Notes under the pieces: model-generated
What the model was told of the DNA's origin: nothing
Database searches by the model: none
The model's input: the letters and a program-made list of their open reading frames with translations, nothing else
Assembly: GCA_902783205.1 (NCBI GenBank)
Contig: CACZQE010000034.1
Span: 1 to 14,104 of the forward strand
Reading direction: 5' to 3'
DNA: 14,104 nt
Source: an uncultured Lachnospiraceae bacterium
Lineage (GTDB): Bacteria; Bacillota_A; Clostridia; Lachnospirales; Lachnospiraceae
Part shown: piece by piece, positions 5,367 through 14,003 of the stretch
Layout: each line of letters begins with the position of its first letter
Position numbering within the stretch: the stretch's first letter is position 1
Made by a program: the position numbers and the translations under genes

Positions 5367-6074
5367 ATGACTCGTATAGGGATAATCGGCGCCATGGACA
5401 GTGAGATCAGGGCCCTGATCAGCTGCATGGAGGAAGTGGAGACTGAAAAAATCGCGTCTATGACATTTTATAAAGGAAAACTCTGGGGAAAAGATACCGT
5501 GCTGGTCAAATGCGGGGTAGGCAAAGTCAACATGACTGCCTGTACCCAGATCCTTGCCAGCATCTATAAGGTAGGCACACTGATCAATACAGGAGTGGCG
5601 GGTGCTCTGAAAAAAGGAATGCGTGTGGGAGACATTGTCATTTCCAGTGACGCGGTGGAGCATGACATGGACGCTACGGGCCTGGGATTTGAAAAGGGAG
5701 TCATTCCCTATATGGATGAATCCGTTTTCCGGGCGGATCCTGATCTGGTGCAGCTGGCAAAGGATTCCTGCCGGGCGGTAAATCCCGATGTGAACTGCTA
5801 TGTCGGCAGAGTGGTGACGGGGGATCAGTTTATCAGCAGCCGGAAAGTGAAAAACAAGCTGGTAAAGACATTTGAAGGATTCTGTGCCGAGATGGAGGGA
5901 GCAGCCATGGCACAGGCCGCCTATCTGAACGGGATTCCCTTTGTGATCATCCGGGCAATCTCGGACAATGCGGATGACAGCGCCTCCGGAGACTTTGAGG
6001 AGTTTACGGAAAAAGCTGTCGAGCATACTACACATCTCCTGGAGGAAATGTTCCCCAGACTTCCTGACCGGTAA
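5367..6074 (+). CDS. mtnN: 5'-methylthioadenosine/S-adenosylhomocysteine nucleosidase
   Basis: Hydrolyses the glycosidic bond of methylthioadenosine, S-adenosylhomocysteine and 5'-deoxyadenosine, releasing adenine. It clears inhibitory products of methylation, polyamine and radical-SAM chemistry, and its S-ribosylhomocysteine product can feed LuxS. 235 residues, family-typical. IGIIGAMDSEIRAL places the general-base Glu13 where E. coli has Glu12. NTGVAGAL (74-81) is the purine-site loop, EMEGAAMAQAA (175-185) the ribose-binding block, and Asp200 in ISDNADDSASGD the proton donor. AGGAGGA lies 8 bases before the ATG. A monocistronic unit with its own terminator. Confidence 0.97.
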   Translation: MTRIGIIGAMDSEIRALISCMEEVETEKIASMTFYKGKLWGKDTVLVKCGVGKVNMTACTQILASIYKVGTLINTGVAGALKKGMRVGDIVISSDAVEHDMDATGLGFEKGVIPYMDESVFRADPDLVQLAKDSCRAVNPDVNCYVGRVVTGDQFISSRKVKNKLVKTFEGFCAEMEGAAMAQAAYLNGIPFVIIRAISDNADDSASGDFEEFTEKAVEHTTHLLEEMFPRLPDR

Positions 6075-6112
6075 AAAAAGCGGCCCCGGGGATTCGTCCC
6101 GGGGCCTTTTTT
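6073..6112. terminator. Strong bidirectional terminator between mtnN and the 89-residue gene
   Basis: GGCCCCGGG (6082-6090) pairs with CCCGGGGCC (6098-6106), a 9-bp all-GC stem with a 7-base loop, flanked by A7 on the left and T6 on the right. Both strands therefore have a stem followed by a T-run; the A-run overlaps the mtnN stop. Confidence 0.93.
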
Positions 6113-6495: not shown

Positions 6496-6879
6496 ATGAA
6501 TGTAATGATCATTATTATAATCCTTCTTCTGATCAGTTCAGCCTGTATGGCTTTTGTTGCGGTCAGGAGCGGAACAAAAAAACCGGTATCATCCGGCAGA
6601 CCGTCCCGCCCCCTGCCGAAAAGGCCGGACCCGGTACCCGTTCCCGGAAAGATGCCGGACGGTCCGTCAGGAGGGATAATTCCGCCGACTGAAAAACCGG
6701 CCCCGGCAGGAGGCCTGCAAAAACCGGAAAACAATGAGCCGGCTGTTGCCGAAGATATTGATATATTATATCAGTATTCCCGCGAATACCCTGTCTGGGT
6801 GTGCGGATACTGTGAGACGGAAAACAGGCTGGAAGAGAGCAGATGCGCAGTTTGTAATGAGAGAAATGACAGAGGTTGA
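6496..6879 (+). CDS. Membrane-anchored protein with C-terminal RanBP2-type zinc finger
   Basis: 127 residues, ATG preceded by AAGGAG at 8 bases. Residues 3-22 are one hydrophobic helix. The basic residues come just after it (R24, K28, K29), so by the positive-inside rule the remainder faces the cytosol. The helix holds a Cys in SSAC, but the -3 residue is wrong for a lipobox. Residues 28-80 are a Pro-rich linker. The C-terminus shows W101-V-C103-x2-C106-x3-N110-x6-C117-x2-C120, the pattern of the RanBP2 zinc finger (WxCxxC...N...CxxC), a family known for binding ubiquitin, single-stranded RNA or other partners. It is the first gene of the six-gene cluster; the next start lies 2 bases beyond its stop. 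Partner and role unknown. Confidence 0.8.
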   Translation: MNVMIIIIILLLISSACMAFVAVRSGTKKPVSSGRPSRPLPKRPDPVPVPGKMPDGPSGGIIPPTEKPAPAGGLQKPENNEPAVAEDIDILYQYSREYPVWVCGYCETENRLEESRCAVCNERNDRG

Positions 6880-6881
6880 AT

Positions 6882-7502
6882 ATGTTTTGTGAAAAATGCG
6901 GAAGGAAAATACGCCCCGGAGCAGGAGCCTGCCCGGAATGCGGACATGAGGTGACCGCAACCGAGTACTGCGGCGGTTTCTGGGGAATCAATTCAGATAA
7001 AAAGGACGAAAGGCCGGAAGAGGAAGCAGCGCAGGCGGGAATGGTTCCGCCGGCTGAGGATCCGGTCATTCAGGCGGCTCCCCCTGACAGTGAAGCGGCG
7101 CCGGAGATAAGAAGGCCGCAAAGGCAGGCACACAGACAGATGCAGAGACAGGCACAGAAACAGAAAAGAGAAGACCATCTGAGACTGCTGCCCTACATCC
7201 TCTGCGGAATCCTGATCATAGTTTCCTTTGTACAGCTGCTTCAGATCCACGGAATGAGAAAGACCAATCATAAACTGAAAAGAGAAGCGCAGGAGTGGCG
7301 ACGGGAAGCGGAAGCCGCGCAGGAAGAGCTGGAAGAAGCCGCCCGCCAGGAAAAAGAGTCAGAGGAAGAGACAAAAGATAATAATCAGAAAAAGGGCAAG
7401 AGTAAAGAAGACAACAGCAAAGAAGATAATAGCAAAGAAGACCAGGAGAAACAGGAACTGGAAGAGGAGATAGATTTTTCGGAATCCAGAGACGAGATAT
7501 AA
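6882..7502 (+). CDS. Single-pass membrane protein: N-terminal zinc ribbon, C-terminal coiled coil
   Basis: 206 residues. The ATG at 6882 is preferred over a TTG at 6876 that overlaps the previous stop; AGAGG is 6 bases before the ATG. Cys3, Cys6, Cys17 and Cys20 (FCEKCGRKI...ACPECGHEV) make a zinc ribbon. Residues 75-99 are rich in Arg and Gln (RQAHRQMQRQAQKQKRE). Residues about 102-122 are one membrane helix, and 126-165 a strongly charged coiled coil. The tail contains three KEDNS-type units encoded by a 15-base repeat and ends in acidic residues. The basic block before the helix suggests the ribbon is cytosolic and the coiled coil extracytoplasmic, though a basic stretch also follows the helix. 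It is tightly linked to the gene before it. Function unknown; a scaffold or sensor is plausible. Confidence 0.82.
   Translation: MFCEKCGRKIRPGAGACPECGHEVTATEYCGGFWGINSDKKDERPEEEAAQAGMVPPAEDPVIQAAPPDSEAAPEIRRPQRQAHRQMQRQAQKQKREDHLRLLPYILCGILIIVSFVQLLQIHGMRKTNHKLKREAQEWRREAEAAQEELEEAARQEKESEEETKDNNQKKGKSKEDNSKEDNSKEDQEKQELEEEIDFSESRDEI
7401..7445 (+). repeat. Three tandem 15-base in-frame repeats
   Basis: The units AGTAAAGAAGACAAC, AGCAAAGAAGATAAT and AGCAAAGAAGACCAG are consecutive and encode SKEDN-SKEDN-SKEDQ in the tail of the zinc-ribbon/coiled-coil protein. The third-position differences suggest the array is old or maintained for its peptide. Confidence 0.85.
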
Positions 7503-7512
7503 AAGAGAAAAA

Positions 7513-7556
7513 TGCTGATGACAACTTATATATAATGAAGCGATACAGATTCAGCA
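7513..7556 (+). promoter_or_regulatory. Possible internal promoter region before the VWA gene
   Basis: The 72-base gap holds TATAAT (7531-7536) with no good -35 at 16-18 bases. It is flanked by an inverted repeat, TGCTGA (7513-7518) and TCAGCA (7551-7556). This may be a weak internal promoter for the VWA-phosphatase-kinase part of the cluster, or a chance AT-rich gap. Confidence 0.3.
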
Positions 7557-7574
7557 CAAGAGAAAGGAGCGCTT

Positions 7575-8261
7575 ATGGGCAGTAACTATCGTTTTACATA
7601 TGGAGTGGATCTGGTGTTCTGTATCGATGCGACCGGAAGTATGAATCCGATCCTGGATACAGTAAAGAACAACGCATTGAATTTCTATCAGGATTTTCAG
7701 AACATCATGGCCAAAAAGAATAAGCATGTCGAGGAGTTCAGGATCCGCGTGATCGCTTTCCGGGACTATTATTATGACCGGGCCGATGCCATGCTCACAA
7801 CCGACTTTTTCCGTCTGCCGGATCAGACTAAGGAATTTGAGGCCTGTGTGAAGAGCATTACTGCAAAAGGCGGAGGGGATGACCCCGAGGACGGCCTTGA
7901 AGCGCTTGCCTTTGCCATGCGTTCCAAATGGAATCGTGAAACCATGAAAAAGAGACACGTGATCGTGGTATGGTCCGACGACGGAACCCACCAGCTGGGA
8001 TTCGGAAAGGAAGCGTCAAACTATCCCTCCAAAATGGCATCGGATTTTGACGAGCTGACGAAGTGGTGGGGAAGCAGGCAGACACAGGGCCTGATGGACG
8101 AGTCCGCAAAAAGACTGCTTCTTTTCACCCCGAGCAAGGACAGCTGGACCACCATCCGTGATAACTGGAATAATGTAATCCAGTATGAGTCGGAGGCAGG
8201 GGCCGGACTTAAAGACTATGATTATGACCAGATTCTGAATGCAATATGTAATTCAATCTGA
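7575..8261 (+). CDS. VWA-domain protein of a TerY-P-like triad
   Basis: 228 residues, essentially one von Willebrand factor A domain, ATG with AAAGGAG 5 bases upstream. DLVFCIDATGSMNPIL carries the metal-ion-dependent adhesion site (D18-x-T20-x-S22). GGGDDPEDGLEAL (99-111) is the block that often carries the second MIDAS segment in bacterial VWA proteins, and VIVVWSDDGTHQLG (129-142) supplies the third strand with Asp135/136. There is no signal peptide or membrane segment, so it is cytosolic. VWA proteins of this sort act as Mg-dependent interaction modules. Followed by a PP2C phosphatase and a kinase, it corresponds to the TerY position of TerY-P triads. It lacks an extra C-terminal zinc-ribbon domain; zinc ribbons are instead on the neighbouring proteins. 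Domain secure; partner unknown. Confidence 0.9.
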   Translation: MGSNYRFTYGVDLVFCIDATGSMNPILDTVKNNALNFYQDFQNIMAKKNKHVEEFRIRVIAFRDYYYDRADAMLTTDFFRLPDQTKEFEACVKSITAKGGGDDPEDGLEALAFAMRSKWNRETMKKRHVIVVWSDDGTHQLGFGKEASNYPSKMASDFDELTKWWGSRQTQGLMDESAKRLLLFTPSKDSWTTIRDNWNNVIQYESEAGAGLKDYDYDQILNAICNSI

Positions 8262-8287
8262 CAGCCAGAATACAAGGAGAACATTCA

Positions 8288-9280
8288 GTGAATACATTTG
8301 CCGGTAAATATGATTTTCTCTTTCTGATTCACAAAGAGGCTGTGGAGGGAAAGGGCGAAGACAGCTTTTACTGCTGCGCGGATCCCCTGGACGGACAGTC
8401 CGCGGCCGTGGCGGTATTTGACGGCAGCGGCGGCGCGGGATCCAGGATTCATGAGGAATTCGGCGGACATACGGAAGCCTATATTGCTTCCCGCTGCCTG
8501 AGCGGAGCCATGTGTGACTGGTATCACGAGAACGGAAAAGGCCACTGGCGGTCGGCAGTCCAGTTGAGGGACAGCCTGAAAACCTCCTTTGAAAAAGCAT
8601 TTTCCCTGTGCAGTGAAAAGAGCGACCGGAACCGGATGATCATGGGCAGCATGGTGAAAAGCTTTCCTACTACTGCAGCAATCGCCTACGCCCAGGAAGA
8701 CCCGGAAGGGATTCTTGTTCATGTTATGTGGGCGGGCGATTCCAGGGTTTATCTGATGGACCGGGAAGGGCTGGCCCAGCTGACGGAAGATGACCTTGAC
8801 GGTCAGGATGCCCTTGCCAATCTCTATGATGACGGTGTGATGACCAACATGCTGTCATCTGATGAGGAAGTAAAGCTTCACGCGAAAAGCTTCCGCATTT
8901 CAGGGCCGACTCTGATTTTTGCCGCGACGGACGGCTGCTTCGGTTATTTTCCGACACCGATGGACTTTGAGTATGTGATACTCTCGTCCCTGGACAGGGC
9001 CGGCAGGCCGGACCGTTTCAAGGAGAACCTGAAGGCCTGGTTTACGGAATATGCCGGCGACGACTTTGCCATGGGCCTTATGAGCTTTTTCCATGGTGAT
9101 TTCCGCAAGCTGAAAAAAACATATGCCGGCCGGACCCGGTACATCTATAACAGGTACATAGAGCCTCTTTCCCGATGCCGGGAAGAAAACAGACAGGACA
9201 CAGAGACATTTACGGCTGCTCTGTGGGAGGATTACCGGACCGGATATGAAAGATATCTGCAGAAAGAGAATGAATCATGA
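8288..9280 (+). CDS. PP2C-family Ser/Thr protein phosphatase
   Basis: 330 residues, GTG start at 8288 with AAGGAG 8 bases upstream and no better start near. PP2C enzymes are Mg/Mn-dependent phosphatases that reverse Ser/Thr kinases. The metal-binding and core motifs are present in order: GEDSFY (Asp25), VAVFDGSGGAGS (Asp45), FPTTAAIAY in place of GTT (127-135), VMWAGDSRVYLM (147-158) with LTEDD following, FAATDGCFGY (Asp215) and GDDFAMGLM (Asp258/259). All the aspartates expected for metal binding remain, so it is probably active. Residues about 270-330 form an extra helical tail rich in Arg, Tyr and Glu. There is no membrane segment. It overlaps the kinase gene by four bases (ATGA), the strongest sign of coupled expression. 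Confidence 0.92.
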   Translation: MNTFAGKYDFLFLIHKEAVEGKGEDSFYCCADPLDGQSAAVAVFDGSGGAGSRIHEEFGGHTEAYIASRCLSGAMCDWYHENGKGHWRSAVQLRDSLKTSFEKAFSLCSEKSDRNRMIMGSMVKSFPTTAAIAYAQEDPEGILVHVMWAGDSRVYLMDREGLAQLTEDDLDGQDALANLYDDGVMTNMLSSDEEVKLHAKSFRISGPTLIFAATDGCFGYFPTPMDFEYVILSSLDRAGRPDRFKENLKAWFTEYAGDDFAMGLMSFFHGDFRKLKKTYAGRTRYIYNRYIEPLSRCREENRQDTETFTAALWEDYRTGYERYLQKENES

Positions 9281-10251
9281 GCGAGATGATCAACGGATAT
9301 GAACTGCTCCAGCCGCTTCAGAACCAGAATGCAGGCTTCTGCAAATGGACATTTGTGCGGCGCTACGGACATGAATACTTTTTAAAGGAATTCGTGGATC
9401 CTGTTTACCCGGAGGAAAACGCCCTGTCACCCGAACTTCGTGACGAGCGGATCCGGATCTGCAAGGATTATGAAGAATCCAAGAAAAAACTCTACCGGGC
9501 CATCAATGAGGCATCGGACGGCGGTGCGGTAAGGATCTGGGAATTCTTCCGTTCAGGATCCCGTTACTATATTGTCATGACCAAAGTGGTCAATGAAGGA
9601 ATCGATATTGAGCGTATCACATCCCTTCCCATGGAGGACCGGATGCTGATACTGAAAAGCGCCGCGCACAGCCTGATGCTTTTACACCGGGCAAATGTGG
9701 TGCACTCAGACGTGAAGCCCGGAAACTTTCTTATTAAAAGGACTGCAAAAGGAAAGTATGTAACCCGGATCATAGACTTTGACTGCAGTTTCCTGGAGTC
9801 GGATCCGCCGGATGCCAGTGACGACCTGGGAGGAGACCAGGTTTATCTGGCGCCCGAAGCGGTAAGGTTTATGTTCGGAGAAGATGTAAAGATTACGACC
9901 AAGGCAGATGTTTTTGCCCTGGGTCTTCTGTTCCACCAGTATCTGACCGGAAGCCTGCCGGAATTCGACACCGGTGAATACGATTATGCGTGTGAAGCAG
10001 TCCTGGACGGTCAGGAAATTCTTCCGTCTCCCTCTCTGGAAGACCACCTGAGGGAGATGATCGGAGGAATGCTGAAAGCCGAACCGGAAGAAAGGTGGGA
10101 CATGGAAAAGGTATTTCGCTGTCTCTGCGGGGAAAGCGCGGAGACTGCGGTTAAAGCAGAAATAAAAGCAGCCCCGGAAAAGAAAGAGGATCCGGGCGGG
10201 TTTGATCCGTCCAATCCCTGGAAAATGGCTGATGACAGCGACCTGTGGTAG
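9277..10251 (+). CDS. Ser/Thr protein kinase of a TerY-P-like triad
   Basis: 324 residues, ATG overlapping the phosphatase stop (ATGA), AGAAAGAG upstream. Kinase landmarks: Lys37 in EYFLKEF, a Glu in the helix-C region (66/67), HSDVKPGN with catalytic Asp145, Lys147 and Asn150, Asp167 in IIDFDCSF, APE at 192-194 and Asp211 in KADVFALGLL. Two departures: the glycine-rich loop is replaced by QNAGFCKWTF, and DFG reads DFD. The metal-binding Asp is kept, so catalysis is likely. The QNAGFCKWTF...EYFLKEF...P style recalls the subfamily paired with PP2C and VWA proteins. There is no membrane helix. A linker (285-309) leads to a C-terminal motif, SNPWKMADDSDLW, shared with the next protein. Confidence 0.93.
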   Translation: MSEMINGYELLQPLQNQNAGFCKWTFVRRYGHEYFLKEFVDPVYPEENALSPELRDERIRICKDYEESKKKLYRAINEASDGGAVRIWEFFRSGSRYYIVMTKVVNEGIDIERITSLPMEDRMLILKSAAHSLMLLHRANVVHSDVKPGNFLIKRTAKGKYVTRIIDFDCSFLESDPPDASDDLGGDQVYLAPEAVRFMFGEDVKITTKADVFALGLLFHQYLTGSLPEFDTGEYDYACEAVLDGQEILPSPSLEDHLREMIGGMLKAEPEERWDMEKVFRCLCGESAETAVKAEIKAAPEKKEDPGGFDPSNPWKMADDSDLW

Positions 10252-10274
10252 AAACTGAAAGGAGAGTGAACCAA

Positions 10275-11480
10275 TTGAATTTTAAGATATGTATAAGACA
10301 TGCAGTCTGTGTCCTTGCTTTTTTCTTATGTATCTGTATCTTCCCTGCAGCCCTGAAGGTATCCATACAGGCAATGGGGGTAGAACTTTCCAGATCCATC
10401 AGCATGTTAAACCTGATCTTCGGTTTTGAAGTGGAAGGATATCATCTTGACGGGACGATCGTCCTTCTGATCACACTTTTTATTCCTCTGATCATGATTG
10501 TTCTGAATCTGATCGGGCAATCGCTGGGAAAGACACTGGCCATTATCAATATTGCTCTGGCTGCTGTGGATACTATCATCTGGTTCTTCTGCAGAGCCAT
10601 GTTTCTTAAGGGAATCAGGGAAGAACTTTCCATGGGAGGATTCGACCTTTCCTCCATGGTACATGTGCAGCTTGGCGGAGGCTTTATCATGACTCTGCTC
10701 TTCTGCTTTATAATCGCTGTTCTAAGCATCCTTTCCCTTATAGGGATTCTTGACCTCAATACGGTTCTTGCGGGCAAAGCATATGACGATACGCCGGTAG
10801 CAGTTGCAAGGCCGGCGCCTGAGAGACCGGAACCCGCTCACGGAAGCGGATTTCCGGAACCTTCCTTCGTGCCTGAACGTGCGGAGGAAAAAAGCGACGA
10901 GCCCTGGGTATGTCCTAACTGCGGATCTGTTCTGCGGCCGGTCGCAAAGTTCTGTACTAAATGCGGGGCAAAGAAACCTGTTGCGGCAGCTGCCGCAAAG
11001 CCTGTTGGCGTCTGGGAGCCGGGGCCTGCAGCAGAAAGCAGTGATACAGGAAGCCATACGGTGAAGATGGATCCGGTAGATATCCCCCTTCCTGATATGC
11101 CGGTATTCCCGGCAGGAGGAGCAGACGCGCCTACGGTGCCGCCCGTATCCGAAGTGCCGCCGGCAATACCTGTGCCTGAGGCAGCTCCGGTGTCGGAGAA
11201 GCCGCCTGTAACGCCTGCAGAGCCGGTCGGGGGAAAAGAAAAGCCATCCTCCACATCAAAACTCTGGGGAACAGATGCGGATGCGGAAACTCCGTCCCCG
11301 GCAGCAGGAAGGCCGGCGGCTCCGCCGCCTGCAGGGCCTGCACCTGCTTCGCCGTCGGGAAAAGAAGAACACGGACCCGTATATATACCTTCGTCAGAGC
11401 CTTCATCTGAGGATCAGATGAAAGTCGACACACCTGACAGTCCCTGGAAAGCAGCGGGAGATGCAGATCTTGATTTTTAG
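10275..11480 (+). CDS. Four-helix membrane protein with zinc ribbon and Pro/Ala-rich tail
   Basis: 401 residues from the TTG at 10275, chosen because AAAGGAG (10258-10264) lies 10 bases upstream. A GTG at 10266 is too close to that site, and one at 10245 has no site and would overlap the kinase. Four hydrophobic helices lie at about 9-28, 61-82, 87-107 and 135-159. Then come WVCPNCGSVLRP...FCTKCGAKKP, a zinc ribbon with Cys213, 216, 227 and 230, and about 160 residues rich in Pro, Ala, Ser and Glu, mostly disordered by appearance. The C-terminus SPWKAAGDADLDF nearly repeats the end of the kinase. With an even number of helices and both ends inside, the ribbon and tail should be cytosolic, within reach of the kinase and phosphatase. 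Likely an anchor or substrate of the triad. Function unknown. Confidence 0.85.
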   Translation: MNFKICIRHAVCVLAFFLCICIFPAALKVSIQAMGVELSRSISMLNLIFGFEVEGYHLDGTIVLLITLFIPLIMIVLNLIGQSLGKTLAIINIALAAVDTIIWFFCRAMFLKGIREELSMGGFDLSSMVHVQLGGGFIMTLLFCFIIAVLSILSLIGILDLNTVLAGKAYDDTPVAVARPAPERPEPAHGSGFPEPSFVPERAEEKSDEPWVCPNCGSVLRPVAKFCTKCGAKKPVAAAAAKPVGVWEPGPAAESSDTGSHTVKMDPVDIPLPDMPVFPAGGADAPTVPPVSEVPPAIPVPEAAPVSEKPPVTPAEPVGGKEKPSSTSKLWGTDADAETPSPAAGRPAAPPPAGPAPASPSGKEEHGPVYIPSSEPSSEDQMKVDTPDSPWKAAGDADLDF

Positions 11481-11490
11481 GAAGGCCTTT

Positions 11491-11561
11491 TTTATACAAA
11501 AAAGATGATTTCATAAAAAATAGCAGGAAAGCAAATGTTATTCCTGCTATTTTTGTATAAA
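11491..11561 (+). terminator. Terminator of the six-gene cluster, nested in a larger inverted repeat
   Basis: AAAAATAGCAGGAA (11516-11529) pairs with TTCCTGCTATTTTT (11541-11554), a 14-bp stem with 11-base loop and a T5 end. Outside it, TTTATACAAAAA (11491-11502) is the exact reverse complement of TTTTTGTATAAA (11550-11561). The outer arm shares the T-tract with the inner stem, so the two foldings compete for 11550-11554. Confidence 0.87.
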
Positions 11562-11568
11562 ACAATCA

Positions 11569-11597
11569 TTGTCAATTATCTTTTAAATTTGTATAAT
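11569..11597 (+). promoter_or_regulatory. Sigma-A promoter of serC
   Basis: TTGTCA (11569-11574), 17 bases, perfect TATAAT (11592-11597); start expected near 11604, 32 bases before the serC ATG. An 11-base palindrome, ACAATCATTGT (11562-11572), overlaps the -35 and is a possible operator. Confidence 0.78.
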
Positions 11598-11635: not shown

Positions 11636-12718
11636 ATGGGCCGAGTATATAATTTTTCAGCAGGTCCGGCTGTACTGCCGGAAGAAGTATTGAGAGAAGC
11701 AGCAGACGAGATGCTTGATTATCGCGGATGCGGTATGTCCGTAATGGAAATGAGCCACCGTTCAAAGGTATATGACGACATAATCAAGGAGGCGGAAAAG
11801 GATCTCCGTGATCTCATGGATATTCCGGATAACTATAAAGTACTCTTCCTGCAGGGAGGAGCTTCCCAGCAGTTCAGTGCGATTCCCATGAACCTCATGA
11901 AGAACGGTGTGGCTGATTATATCGTCACCGGACAGTGGGCAAAGAAAGCTTATCAGGAGGCATCCAGGTACGGAAAAGCCGTCAAGATCGCATCCTCCGA
12001 AGATAAAACATTTACCTATATTCCGGATTGTTCCGACCTGCCGATCGATGATGATGCGGACTATGTGTACATTTGTGAGAATAATACAATTTACGGAACA
12101 AAGTTCCACCAGCTTCCCGATACAAAAGGGAAGACCCTTGTGGCAGATGTGTCTTCCTGCTTCCTTTCCGAGCCGGTTGATGTCAAAAAGTACGGCGTCA
12201 TCTATGGCGGCGTACAGAAAAATGTCGGACCGGCAGGTGTTGTGATCGTGATCATCCGTGAGGATCTCATCCGTGATGATGTAATGGAAGGTACACCGAC
12301 CATGCTCAAATACAAGACCCAGGCAGACAAGGACTCCCTTTACAACACACCGCCCTGCTACGGAATCTATATCTGCGGCAAAGTGTTTAAGTGGCTGAAA
12401 AAACAGGGCGGACTGGAAGCCATCAGGGAACACAATGAGAAAAAGGCAAAAATCCTTTATGATTTCCTTGACAGCAGCAGCCTCTTTAAGGGAACCGTGG
12501 AAAAGAAAGACCGTTCTCTGATGAATGTGCCTTTTGTCACAGGCGACAAGGACCTGGATGCGGAGTTTGTGGCTGCAGCAGAGCAGGCAGGATTTGTGAA
12601 TCTGAAAGGACACAGAAGCGTGGGCGGCATGCGCGCGTCAATCTATAATGCGATGCCTCTGGAAGGCGTGGAAAAGCTGGTCGCATTTATGAAAGATTTT
12701 GAGGAGAAACACTCCTGA
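11636..12718 (+). CDS. serC: Phosphoserine aminotransferase
   Basis: PLP-dependent transamination of 3-phosphohydroxypyruvate with glutamate, giving phosphoserine in serine synthesis (and 4-phosphohydroxythreonine in the DXP-dependent pyridoxal route where present). 360 residues, standard for SerC. YNFSAGPAVLPEEVL is the N-terminal signature, FLQGGASQQF (71-80) and VTGQWAKKA (97-105) are phosphate and cofactor contacts, Asp171 in VADVSS binds the pyridine nitrogen, and Lys195 in GGVQKNVGPAG forms the Schiff base. The C-terminal SVGGMRASIYNAMP block is intact. AGGAGG lies 9 bases before the ATG, and a clear promoter precedes it. The serA gene that often follows serC is absent; a membrane protein gene follows after 10 bases. 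Confidence 0.97.
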   Translation: MGRVYNFSAGPAVLPEEVLREAADEMLDYRGCGMSVMEMSHRSKVYDDIIKEAEKDLRDLMDIPDNYKVLFLQGGASQQFSAIPMNLMKNGVADYIVTGQWAKKAYQEASRYGKAVKIASSEDKTFTYIPDCSDLPIDDDADYVYICENNTIYGTKFHQLPDTKGKTLVADVSSCFLSEPVDVKKYGVIYGGVQKNVGPAGVVIVIIREDLIRDDVMEGTPTMLKYKTQADKDSLYNTPPCYGIYICGKVFKWLKKQGGLEAIREHNEKKAKILYDFLDSSSLFKGTVEKKDRSLMNVPFVTGDKDLDAEFVAAAEQAGFVNLKGHRSVGGMRASIYNAMPLEGVEKLVAFMKDFEEKHS

Positions 12719-12728
12719 ATACGGAGAT

Positions 12729-14003
12729 ATGGCAAATAAAATATATAATTATGAACTGTTCACAAATAAAAAAGAAAAACTGAGACGGTTCCAGAGATCC
12801 CGCATCCGGAGAAACAGGATGCGCATCTTTGTTGCCGCGGGGGTTGCACTCTTTGTCCTTTTCATTCTGCTTCTGGTCAACAGCAGCCGCTGTGAATACT
12901 ACGTATTTAAGAATGTCAGCGACGCGGAAGAGAACGGCGATGTGTCTTATATTCCTTTTTCGGAAGGTTACATAAAATACAGTACCAATGGCATTGAGTA
13001 TCAGAAAAAACTGGGGACCGCCGAGTGGAATTCTCCTGTGTCAAGCTCTCATCCCTTTGTGGTTACATCAAAGAACTATGCTCTCCTGGGTGACCGGGGC
13101 GGCAACACGATCATGCTCTTTGACAGCAAAGGAGAGGTAAAGAGGTTTACTTTAAAGTACCCCCTTGTATCAGCCTCCGTATCAGATACGGGGATCACGG
13201 AAGTCATACTGGGCGGCGAGCGGAACTCCTACCTTCAGGTATATGACAAAGAATTCTCCCTGGTAGCGGAATTCAGGACATCGGTCGGAGACATGGGCTT
13301 TCCCATGAGCGCGGCCATCTCCCCGGACGGGACAAGACTGGCTGTCAGCTTCTTCCAGATTAACGGAATGAAGACAAAAAGCTCTGTGGTATTCTATGAC
13401 CTGAGCCTTGAGGTGCCGGCCGAGGAATCCGCAGAGGCGGAAGAACTGTCTGCCGGCTTTGATTACGATGACATCATGATCCCCAGGCTGGACTTCCTCA
13501 ATAAAAATACTCTGGTTGCAGTGGGAGACGGCGTTGCCTTTTTCTACAGAGTATCTGCCGAACCGACGGAAATCGCGCGGGAAGAGTTTGACAGGACGAT
13601 CGAAAGTGTATTTTCCGGAAAAGGGAAAATAGGATTTGTCCTGGATAACACCGATGATCCGGAAGGCCGGTATGAGCTTGTTCTATATAACAGCAGAGGT
13701 TCACAGACCACGTCCCTGAAAGTGGATATGAACTATGAGACGATAGAAATGTACGGCAGCGAGATATATGCCTACAGAGGAAATGTCCTGACCATACTCA
13801 GTACATCCGGCCGGATTATTTATCAGGGCAGCCTGGACGGCGGAACCATACAGGCCATCATCCCGATCAGGGGGTGGAGAGCCTACCGCGTAATTTTCCG
13901 GGACAAGACGGCGGATATGCATCTGCGATTCTGGTCAGCAGAGACTGAGAAGAAACCGCAGATACCGGAAAAAGTGGAAATGAGTACGGAAGCAGGAAAC
14001 TGA
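12729..14003 (+). CDS. DUF5711-like membrane-anchored beta-propeller-like protein
   Basis: 424 residues from the ATG at 12729, where GGAG (12723-12726) is only 2 bases away, so translation may depend partly on coupling to serC, 10 bases upstream. A TTG at 12699 inside serC is less likely. Residues 15-32 are very basic, and 33-51 are one hydrophobic helix, so the protein is N-inside with a large extracytoplasmic domain. That domain has repeated beta-strand blades with WD40/PQQ-like phrases: KNYALLGDRGGNTIMLFDSKG, LQVYDKEFSLVAEF and AISPDGTRLAVSFF. This resembles the DUF5711 family found in Clostridia, an assignment made from memory. No catalytic motif is visible. It may bind wall or envelope ligands; the co-transcription with serC has no obvious functional logic. 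Confidence 0.82.
   Translation: MANKIYNYELFTNKKEKLRRFQRSRIRRNRMRIFVAAGVALFVLFILLLVNSSRCEYYVFKNVSDAEENGDVSYIPFSEGYIKYSTNGIEYQKKLGTAEWNSPVSSSHPFVVTSKNYALLGDRGGNTIMLFDSKGEVKRFTLKYPLVSASVSDTGITEVILGGERNSYLQVYDKEFSLVAEFRTSVGDMGFPMSAAISPDGTRLAVSFFQINGMKTKSSVVFYDLSLEVPAEESAEAEELSAGFDYDDIMIPRLDFLNKNTLVAVGDGVAFFYRVSAEPTEIAREEFDRTIESVFSGKGKIGFVLDNTDDPEGRYELVLYNSRGSQTTSLKVDMNYETIEMYGSEIYAYRGNVLTILSTSGRIIYQGSLDGGTIQAIIPIRGWRAYRVIFRDKTADMHLRFWSAETEKKPQIPEKVEMSTEAGN

Follow-up and report, generated by a model that had tools for sequence, protein, structure and literature searches.

A TerY-P-like gene module of Clostridia in which kinases and neighbouring proteins share a C-terminal tail

Introduction

How does the protein kinase of a bacterial phosphorylation module select its partners? 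A TerY-P triad, as present in CoCoNuT loci, consists of a TerY-like VWA protein, a PP2C phosphatase and a serine/threonine kinase with a zinc ribbon (PMC11090510; the papers cited in this contribution are represented by excerpts), and for kinases of this type the choice of partners is not described in the parts of the open literature covered here. The question is raised by the window of this study, a 14,104-nt stretch of DNA from an uncultured Lachnospiraceae bacterium, in which six open reading frames (ORFs; g1 to g6) lie on the plus strand at positions 6496-11480 with spacings of -4, +72, +26, -4 and -7 bases. A preliminary description had read these ORFs as two zinc-binding membrane proteins, a VWA-PP2C-kinase triad and a third zinc-ribbon membrane protein. 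The gene order and the classes were correct, and Pfam matches and hydropathy agree with them, the zinc finger of g1 being a weak match. What that description missed is presumably a new element of the module, namely a conserved C-terminal tail which the kinases share with unrelated neighbouring proteins.

Results

A C-terminal tail shared by kinases and unrelated neighbours

The window kinase (g5; 324 amino acids (aa), positions 9277-10251) ends in the tail NPWKMADDSDLW (10213-10248), and the membrane protein g6 (411 aa, 10245-11480) ends in the matching tail SPWKAAGDADLDF (11439-11477). The score between the two is 30, compared with at most 26 (mean 2.4) for the other 73 loci, and among the other 1055 gene ends the best match to the window kinase end is the kinase of locus L048, directly followed by g6. 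The PWK codons CCC TGG AAA are identical in both genes, but the later shared residues A, D, D and L each differ in their codon, which indicates that the likeness is kept at the protein level. Nothing else ties g6 to the kinase as strongly as this shared tail.

The window tails are a variant (PWKxAxDxDL) of a consensus that approximately reads [W/F]F-x-x-A-G-D-L-COOH and that was derived from 120 listed kinase homologues of 452 found. W, F or Y is present at position -8 in 101 of the 120 and F at -7 in 97, followed by A, G or P at -4 (105), G at -3 (93), D, E or N at -2 (99) and L at -1 (109). A strict form of this pattern is matched by 91 of these kinases compared with 6.25 in shuffles, and by none of 120 listed VWA proteins. 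The homologue listing includes a kinase cluster (P0121) of 100 percent identity with the source label Eubacterium sp. MAG (metagenome-assembled genome). In two of the 120 kinases (P0177, P0238) a zinc ribbon takes the place of the tail, possibly a swap of one element for the other that recalls the TerY-P kinases described. The AlphaFold2 (AF2) model of the relative P0129 shows a disordered tail, with residues 296-312 and 318-320 below a pLDDT confidence score of 50.

For the neighbouring genes we used 136 VWA relatives that had been found in GTDB genome contigs by means of a VWA alignment, from which the 80 best (L001-L080) were taken further. Most of the contig titles refer to Lachnospiraceae, Oscillospiraceae, Ruminococcus and other Clostridia; one gives Solobacterium and another simply 'bacterium'. 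Genes were called by a custom script that may miss small genes and misplace starts; when applied to the window, it left out g1 and truncated g2 and g6. Among the genes called in this way the strict pattern ends 51 of 78 kinases, none of 80 VWA proteins and one of 75 PP2C proteins, and it is found on 19 of 103 zinc-ribbon genes and on 12 of 155 other genes within the run, compared with 8 of 565 genes beyond it, although the matches include apparent chance ends (gene 15 of L017, gene 7 of L022 and window g2).

Gene ends were also compared directly with the last residues of the kinase of the same locus. At a score of at least 22, 16 of 283 genes in the triad runs but only one of 508 genes outside were recovered, and none of 74 VWA and 72 PP2C proteins. 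At a score of at least 20 there are 20 non-kinase proteins from 15 loci, one of which is the window. The bearers at this level comprise zinc-ribbon proteins, either membrane-bound (window g6, L026, L048, L058, L062) or soluble (L041, L049, L064, L071), a transmembrane (TM) protein whose LIM match is weak and below the cut-off, and, in L032, one TetR and one leucine-rich repeat (LRR) protein; a second kinase (L004) likewise scores in this range. Two further bearers, a zinc-ribbon TM protein (L021) and a TIR-kinase (L035), were recognised by the pattern alone. The TIR-kinase (L035:8520-9929) and the second kinase (L004:7551-8576) adjoin their triads and look like candidate clients. At L032:7546-18807 seven tailed proteins, the triad kinase included, are encoded in one 20-kb stretch; the other six are the TetR protein, two similar LIM-like TM proteins (one a weak match), an LRR protein with a TM-like stretch and two proteins without a Pfam match.

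A second, LKSTM-like motif was observed 26-43 residues before the end of bearers in L021, L023, L027, L032, L033, L046 and L049 and in 8 of the 120 listed kinases. It is a possible phosphorylation or docking site.

The tails are matched by locus and almost confined to triad loci

For a comparison of tail bearers with the kinase of their own locus, bearers were selected solely by their likeness to the kinase tails of other loci, and loci were permuted 1000 times without regard to kinship between them. Of 790 genes, 41 qualified, 34 of them in triad runs. The score of a bearer against its own kinase was 17.9, compared with 7.8 under permutation (standard deviation (sd) 2.0, maximum 14.2). Since L032 alone supplies six of the 20 bearers that score at least 20, the test was also evaluated with one bearer per locus and gave 14.5 versus 7.1 (sd 1.4, maximum 11.5); selection of the bearers by likeness to their own kinase gave 17.9 versus 7.9. 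When the cut-off was tightened, 28 bearers remained, and all but one of them (27) were located in triad runs, which contain 283 of the 790 genes.

We also scanned 44 related genomes for the DNA pattern F-x-x-[AP]-G-[DN]-[LF]-stop, which leaves variant tails such as those of the window outside. The pattern was found 56 times, compared with 17 times for its reversal (summed control columns). An uninterrupted end is encoded by 45 of the matches. Triad loci (0.84 Mb) contain 25 of these, including a copy of the L026 kinase end that lies at the end of a contig (G017:C44), and the other 20 are found elsewhere. Of the 20 matches elsewhere, 19 end non-credible frames of 7 to 114 residues, and the remaining one ends an LRR gene of 306 residues. 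Since the pattern had been drawn from the tails, only its scarcity outside triad loci is informative. By this measure the tail motif is almost confined to triad loci in the 44 genomes.

A second operon type with tailed proteins

The 306-residue LRR gene (L105) adjoins genes for a VWA-like DUF2201 protein and for an AAA+ protein of the MoxR-like kind. Neither a kinase nor a PP2C gene was present among the four genes scanned at this locus. Relatives of the LRR protein were found as 20 matches in 19 of the 44 genomes; 16 of the best 17 (L130-L146) end in [DE][LWF], for example FDLGDL, FSLDDW or KEFDL, compared with 15 of 538 background genes, a comparison for which no p-value is given because the 17 are mutually related. 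The three weaker matches (L147-L149) were excluded before counting, as two of their frames continue past the edge of the stretch and the third has a different end. A DUF2201_N match adjoins 15 of the 17 genes, and L132 and L133 hold a DUF2201-like frame. D-x-[ST]-x-[ST] is present in 39 of 41 DUF2201-like frames retrieved, of which several are duplicate fetches and at least L143 is doubtful. The triad and the LRR-DUF2201-MoxR systems thus have two things in common, a protein of the VWA type and a C-terminal tail that is acidic.

The window itself encodes an LRR_5 protein on the minus strand (137-1039) that ends in EPDFSFD and is related to the L105-type LRR protein (29 percent identity, E 5e-21). 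Genes downstream of it would fall beyond the left edge of the window.

Conservation of the neighbourhood

In the 80 related loci a PP2C gene and a kinase gene were each found near the VWA gene in 76 cases and both together in 73; kinases and VWA proteins pair 46 to 46 in the 44 genomes. The proposal of a TerY-P-like triad is borne out by these counts. The same applies to the stated absence of Ter genes: TerD was neither detected by Pfam among the 10 window proteins scanned nor linked to the VWA gene in the related genomes, five of which carry TerD, always on another contig. A Ter stress module was rejected for lack of a linked TerD.

The zinc-binding membrane proteins require a more differentiated view. 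A pair resembling g1 and g2 lies upstream of the VWA gene in 30 of 80 loci. With profiles grown from g1 and g2 and applied to plus-strand ORFs (E up to 1e-6), a zinc-ribbon ORF was found within 3 kb in 66 of the 77 loci with a flank of 1.5 kb or more on one side and in 51 of the 56 loci where both flanks reach 2.5 kb, and the density of such ORFs is 0.257 per kb near the triad versus 0.023 further away. None was found within 3 kb in 11 loci (L001, L024, L028, L029, L035, L072-L076 and L078), some of which have short flanks; matches in L028 and L029 lie just above the E cut-off. Zinc-binding neighbours are thus frequent, as had been proposed, but g6 is not a conserved member of the module. A search for g6 homologues recovered g6 alone from 7997 candidates scored and carries little information, and the TM part of g6 gave a weak phmmer match (1.4e-5) to one protein of L058. 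In the closest relative, L001, the order is VWA-PP2C-kinase-SerC-DUF5711, and the kinase-SerC gap of 266 bases leaves no room for g6; the two loci therefore share a chromosomal site at which g6 is variable. The contig of L001 begins 322 bases 5' of the VWA gene, so that genes like g1 and g2 would lie at least in part beyond its edge. SerC and DUF5711 follow the unit in the window, too (11636-14003), in the same order as in L001, so that a common chromosomal site seems more likely than a mobile one.

Arrays of multi-TM and zinc-ribbon proteins were observed downstream of PP2C in L058, L062 and L064. One or two proteins per locus contain four to seven zinc-ribbon motifs, and one zinc-ribbon protein per locus has a GFxxxxDDDL-like end.

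Proteins and boundaries of the unit

The VWA protein g3 (228 aa, 7575-8261) is a single domain without a TM segment by hydropathy (Pfam VWA_4, 1.2e-9). The closest solved folds to its predicted structure are integrin beta-I domains, and D18, T20, S22, E105 and D135 form the predicted metal ion-dependent adhesion site (MIDAS), whose residues are invariant. The PP2C-type phosphatase g4 (330 aa, 8288-9280; PP2C_2, 3.2e-7) has the motifs DGSGG, GDSR, TDG and DD, and the kinase (Pkinase, 1e-23) has K37 in LKEF, HSDVKPGN and DFD; these motifs, like D18-x-T20-x-S22, E105 and D135 of the VWA protein, we take to be active-site motifs. Pfam detected neither a zinc ribbon nor an OB-fold at the C-terminus of the kinase, which is formed by the tail. 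E105 seems to stand in for the threonine given for the MIDAS in PMC11090510.

The protein g1 (127 aa, 6496-6879) combines one N-terminal TM segment with a C-terminal, RanBP2-like four-Cys zinc finger. The Pfam match of the finger is below the cut-off (E 0.25), but its Cys residues 103, 106, 117 and 120 and its upstream placement recur across related loci. An N-terminal zinc ribbon (Zn_Ribbon_1, 1e-5), one TM segment and a charged, coiled-coil-like C-terminus make up g2 (208 aa, 6876-7502). Hydropathy gives five windows (four to five helices) for g6, which also contains one zinc ribbon (Cys 223, 226, 237 and 240; Zn_Ribbon_1, 1e-7) and a long Pro-rich linker.

The region 6496-11480 looks like a single transcription unit, as it is bounded by terminator-like hairpins and followed by a promoter-like site. 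A strong stem-loop at 6082-6106 (plus strand), 3' of the upstream gene (5367-6074), forms the upstream limit, and a stem-loop with a T-run at 11500-11565 (plus strand; -19 kcal/mol, z -5.1) is the probable terminator. The promoter-like site 5' of serC is located at 11569-11597 on the plus strand; in all, the promoter scan gave nine sites compared with 7.2 in shuffles.

Discussion

That the tail serves as a tag is well supported by its locus matching and its near confinement to triad loci; its reader is less so. With a probability of about 0.52 we assume that the locus encodes a TerY-P-like reversible phosphorylation system that is anchored at the membrane and uses the VWA protein as a hub. The kinase and g6, each ending in a short acidic tail on a linker, would dock on the VWA domain via these tails, and most likely the acidic residue of the tail would coordinate the MIDAS metal. 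An example of such an interaction is integrin beta3, which binds the C-terminal AGDV of the fibrinogen gamma chain through its MIDAS (PMC4813479). Docking would bring tailed clients beside the kinase and the PP2C phosphatase, where they could be phosphorylated or dephosphorylated, and g1 and g2 may keep the complex on the inner side of the membrane. The membrane proteins could then be substrates or sensors.

Several results weigh against this assignment of the VWA protein. Covariation with the tail class gave no signal there (mean excess information 0.074, versus 0.085 for PP2C and 0.099 for the kinase), and conservation of the MIDAS does not track the tail because the tail-less kinases of L072 and L076 are encoded beside VWA proteins with the same MIDAS residues. 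Some tails have no acid at position -2: among the 120 listed kinases, 14 have N there and another 8 have T, S or V. Of 72 loci, 14 show other ends (for instance FD, DLW or GF), and 17 fit neither class. The window VWA protein has SMNPIL after the MIDAS serine and lacks the Asp pair of the ADMIDAS (adjacent to MIDAS) that is named for beta3 in the excerpts of PMC4813479, and an integrin-like fold by itself shows no function. The presence of a tail is not significantly associated with that of a zinc ribbon (Fisher p 0.46), the locus permutations disregard kinship among loci, and the kinase of a Herpetosiphon triad, retrieved by a search of plasmids (11 records, two of which carry most of the VWA protein), has neither a zinc ribbon (Pfam) nor a clear tail.

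The tail might instead be an assembly tag that is read by PP2C, by a kinase domain in trans or by a zinc finger of g1 or g2, with a separate role for the VWA protein. The covariation, which is no weaker for kinase or PP2C columns than for the VWA protein, would agree with such a reader, as would the frequency of zinc-finger partners (66 of 77 loci) and the two kinases that end in a zinc ribbon. On the other hand, the tail of P0129 is undocked in the AF2 model, although this addresses docking in cis only, and the second tailed operon type has a VWA-type protein but, among the four genes scanned at L105, no kinase or PP2C. Two kinases (L006, L007) are tailed without an adjacent PP2C; another triad (L002, L003), which is complete, is present in the same two genomes, and therefore these two loci do not exclude PP2C as the reader. 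In total we regard a reader other than the VWA protein as rather unlikely. A processing, degradation or export signal would be another reason for a peptide at the extreme C-terminus of both soluble and membrane proteins, and WXG100 genes within 15 kb of the VWA gene in three of the 44 genomes (G003, G004, G023) point in the same direction. A general protease or export signal would, however, be expected neither to match by locus nor to be nearly confined to triad loci, and 24 of the 44 genomes have no WXG100 match; this explanation is the least probable of those considered. WXG100 was detected in the other 20 genomes and in none of the 10 window proteins scanned by Pfam. A regulator of Type VII secretion, for which the ORFs after the kinase in L008 (presumably YukD- and EssC-like, by size and ends) had been considered, was rejected, as the linkage to WXG100 is limited to the three genomes mentioned.

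It is also conceivable that the module is an ordinary antiphage or stress triad of the TerY-P kind in which membrane genes, zinc ribbons and tails are incidental. The three enzyme classes are the same (PMC11090510), TerY-P protects Pseudomonas aeruginosa against phage according to the excerpts of PMC10889362, and in PADLOC the kinase domain matches kinases of defence systems, among them mad6 (7e-25) and PD-T4-6. The VWA and PP2C proteins have no PADLOC match at E up to 0.1, however, and by Pfam the kinase ends in neither a zinc ribbon nor an OB-fold. A scan of IMG/VR confirmed no relative of the VWA protein, the triad of L001, too, is followed by SerC and DUF5711, and zinc-ribbon ORFs are concentrated around the triad, all of which makes an ordinary triad improbable. 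Prophage cargo was likewise rejected: 19 IMG/VR stretches matched a peptide pattern, but no relative could be confirmed among them. A 12-kb unverified 'bacteriophage' record (L103, MT836186.1) with a PP2C-kinase-VWA triad is unconvincing as a phage. Its protein ends are the same as those of the Faecalibacterium locus L059 and adjoining ORFs are integrase-like by eye; perhaps it is a bacterial or mobile-element contig.

The module is best regarded as a variant of the TerY-P kind, since the three-enzyme definition applies but the fusion of kinase and zinc ribbon is absent. VWA with a MIDAS, PP2C with metal-binding Asp motifs and a Ser/Thr kinase are combined in one operon as in TerY-P, whereas the zinc ribbons are located on separate membrane proteins, one of which shares its tail with the kinase; neither a restriction nor a Ter gene was noticed in the window. 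The preliminary description thus holds for the TerY-P-like triad, for the absence of Ter genes and for zinc-binding proteins as frequent neighbours, but not for the membership of g6. The TerY-P-like antiphage system with a kinase-OB fold of Gao et al. 2020, as described in PMC11090510, has the same enzyme classes; it differs in the OB-fold, and PADLOC does not recognise the window VWA and PP2C proteins. In actinobacterial GAP1-N2 neighbourhoods a kinase-zinc ribbon, PP2C and a stand-alone vWA are found, sometimes with TM helices, and the VWA protein was proposed to bind peptides (PMC7159879); the enzyme classes are the same, but the phylum is another and the excerpts mention no such tail. For NorD and other VWA partners of MoxR it was proposed that the MIDAS takes an acidic residue of the target protein (PMC9976466). 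The partners of the window VWA protein are a kinase and a phosphatase, and no MoxR gene was noticed in the window. Integrin beta subunits are multi-domain transmembrane proteins, in contrast to the bacterial single-domain VWA protein without TM segment; MIDAS-type residues are predicted for the latter as well, and by analogy the ligand end AGDV would correspond to the bacterial consensus AGDL. The excerpts of the open PMC literature describe TerY-P but no shared C-terminal tail; most subscription papers and the original TerY-P analysis of 2012 are outside this coverage.

On a wider scale, and somewhat short of an even chance, an intracellular integrin-like code may exist in Clostridia, in which VWA hubs read portable acidic tails (AGDL and locus variants) and thereby wire kinases, phosphatases and zinc-ribbon membrane, LRR and TIR proteins, with LRR-DUF2201-MoxR operons as a second user. 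A tail that is common to the kinase and to unrelated neighbours allows candidate partners of each system to be listed from sequence alone. If the VWA protein indeed reads the tail, bacteria and animals would have converged on a nearly identical ligand, a C-terminal AGDL or AGDV, for the same fold, inside the cell in one case and outside it in the other.

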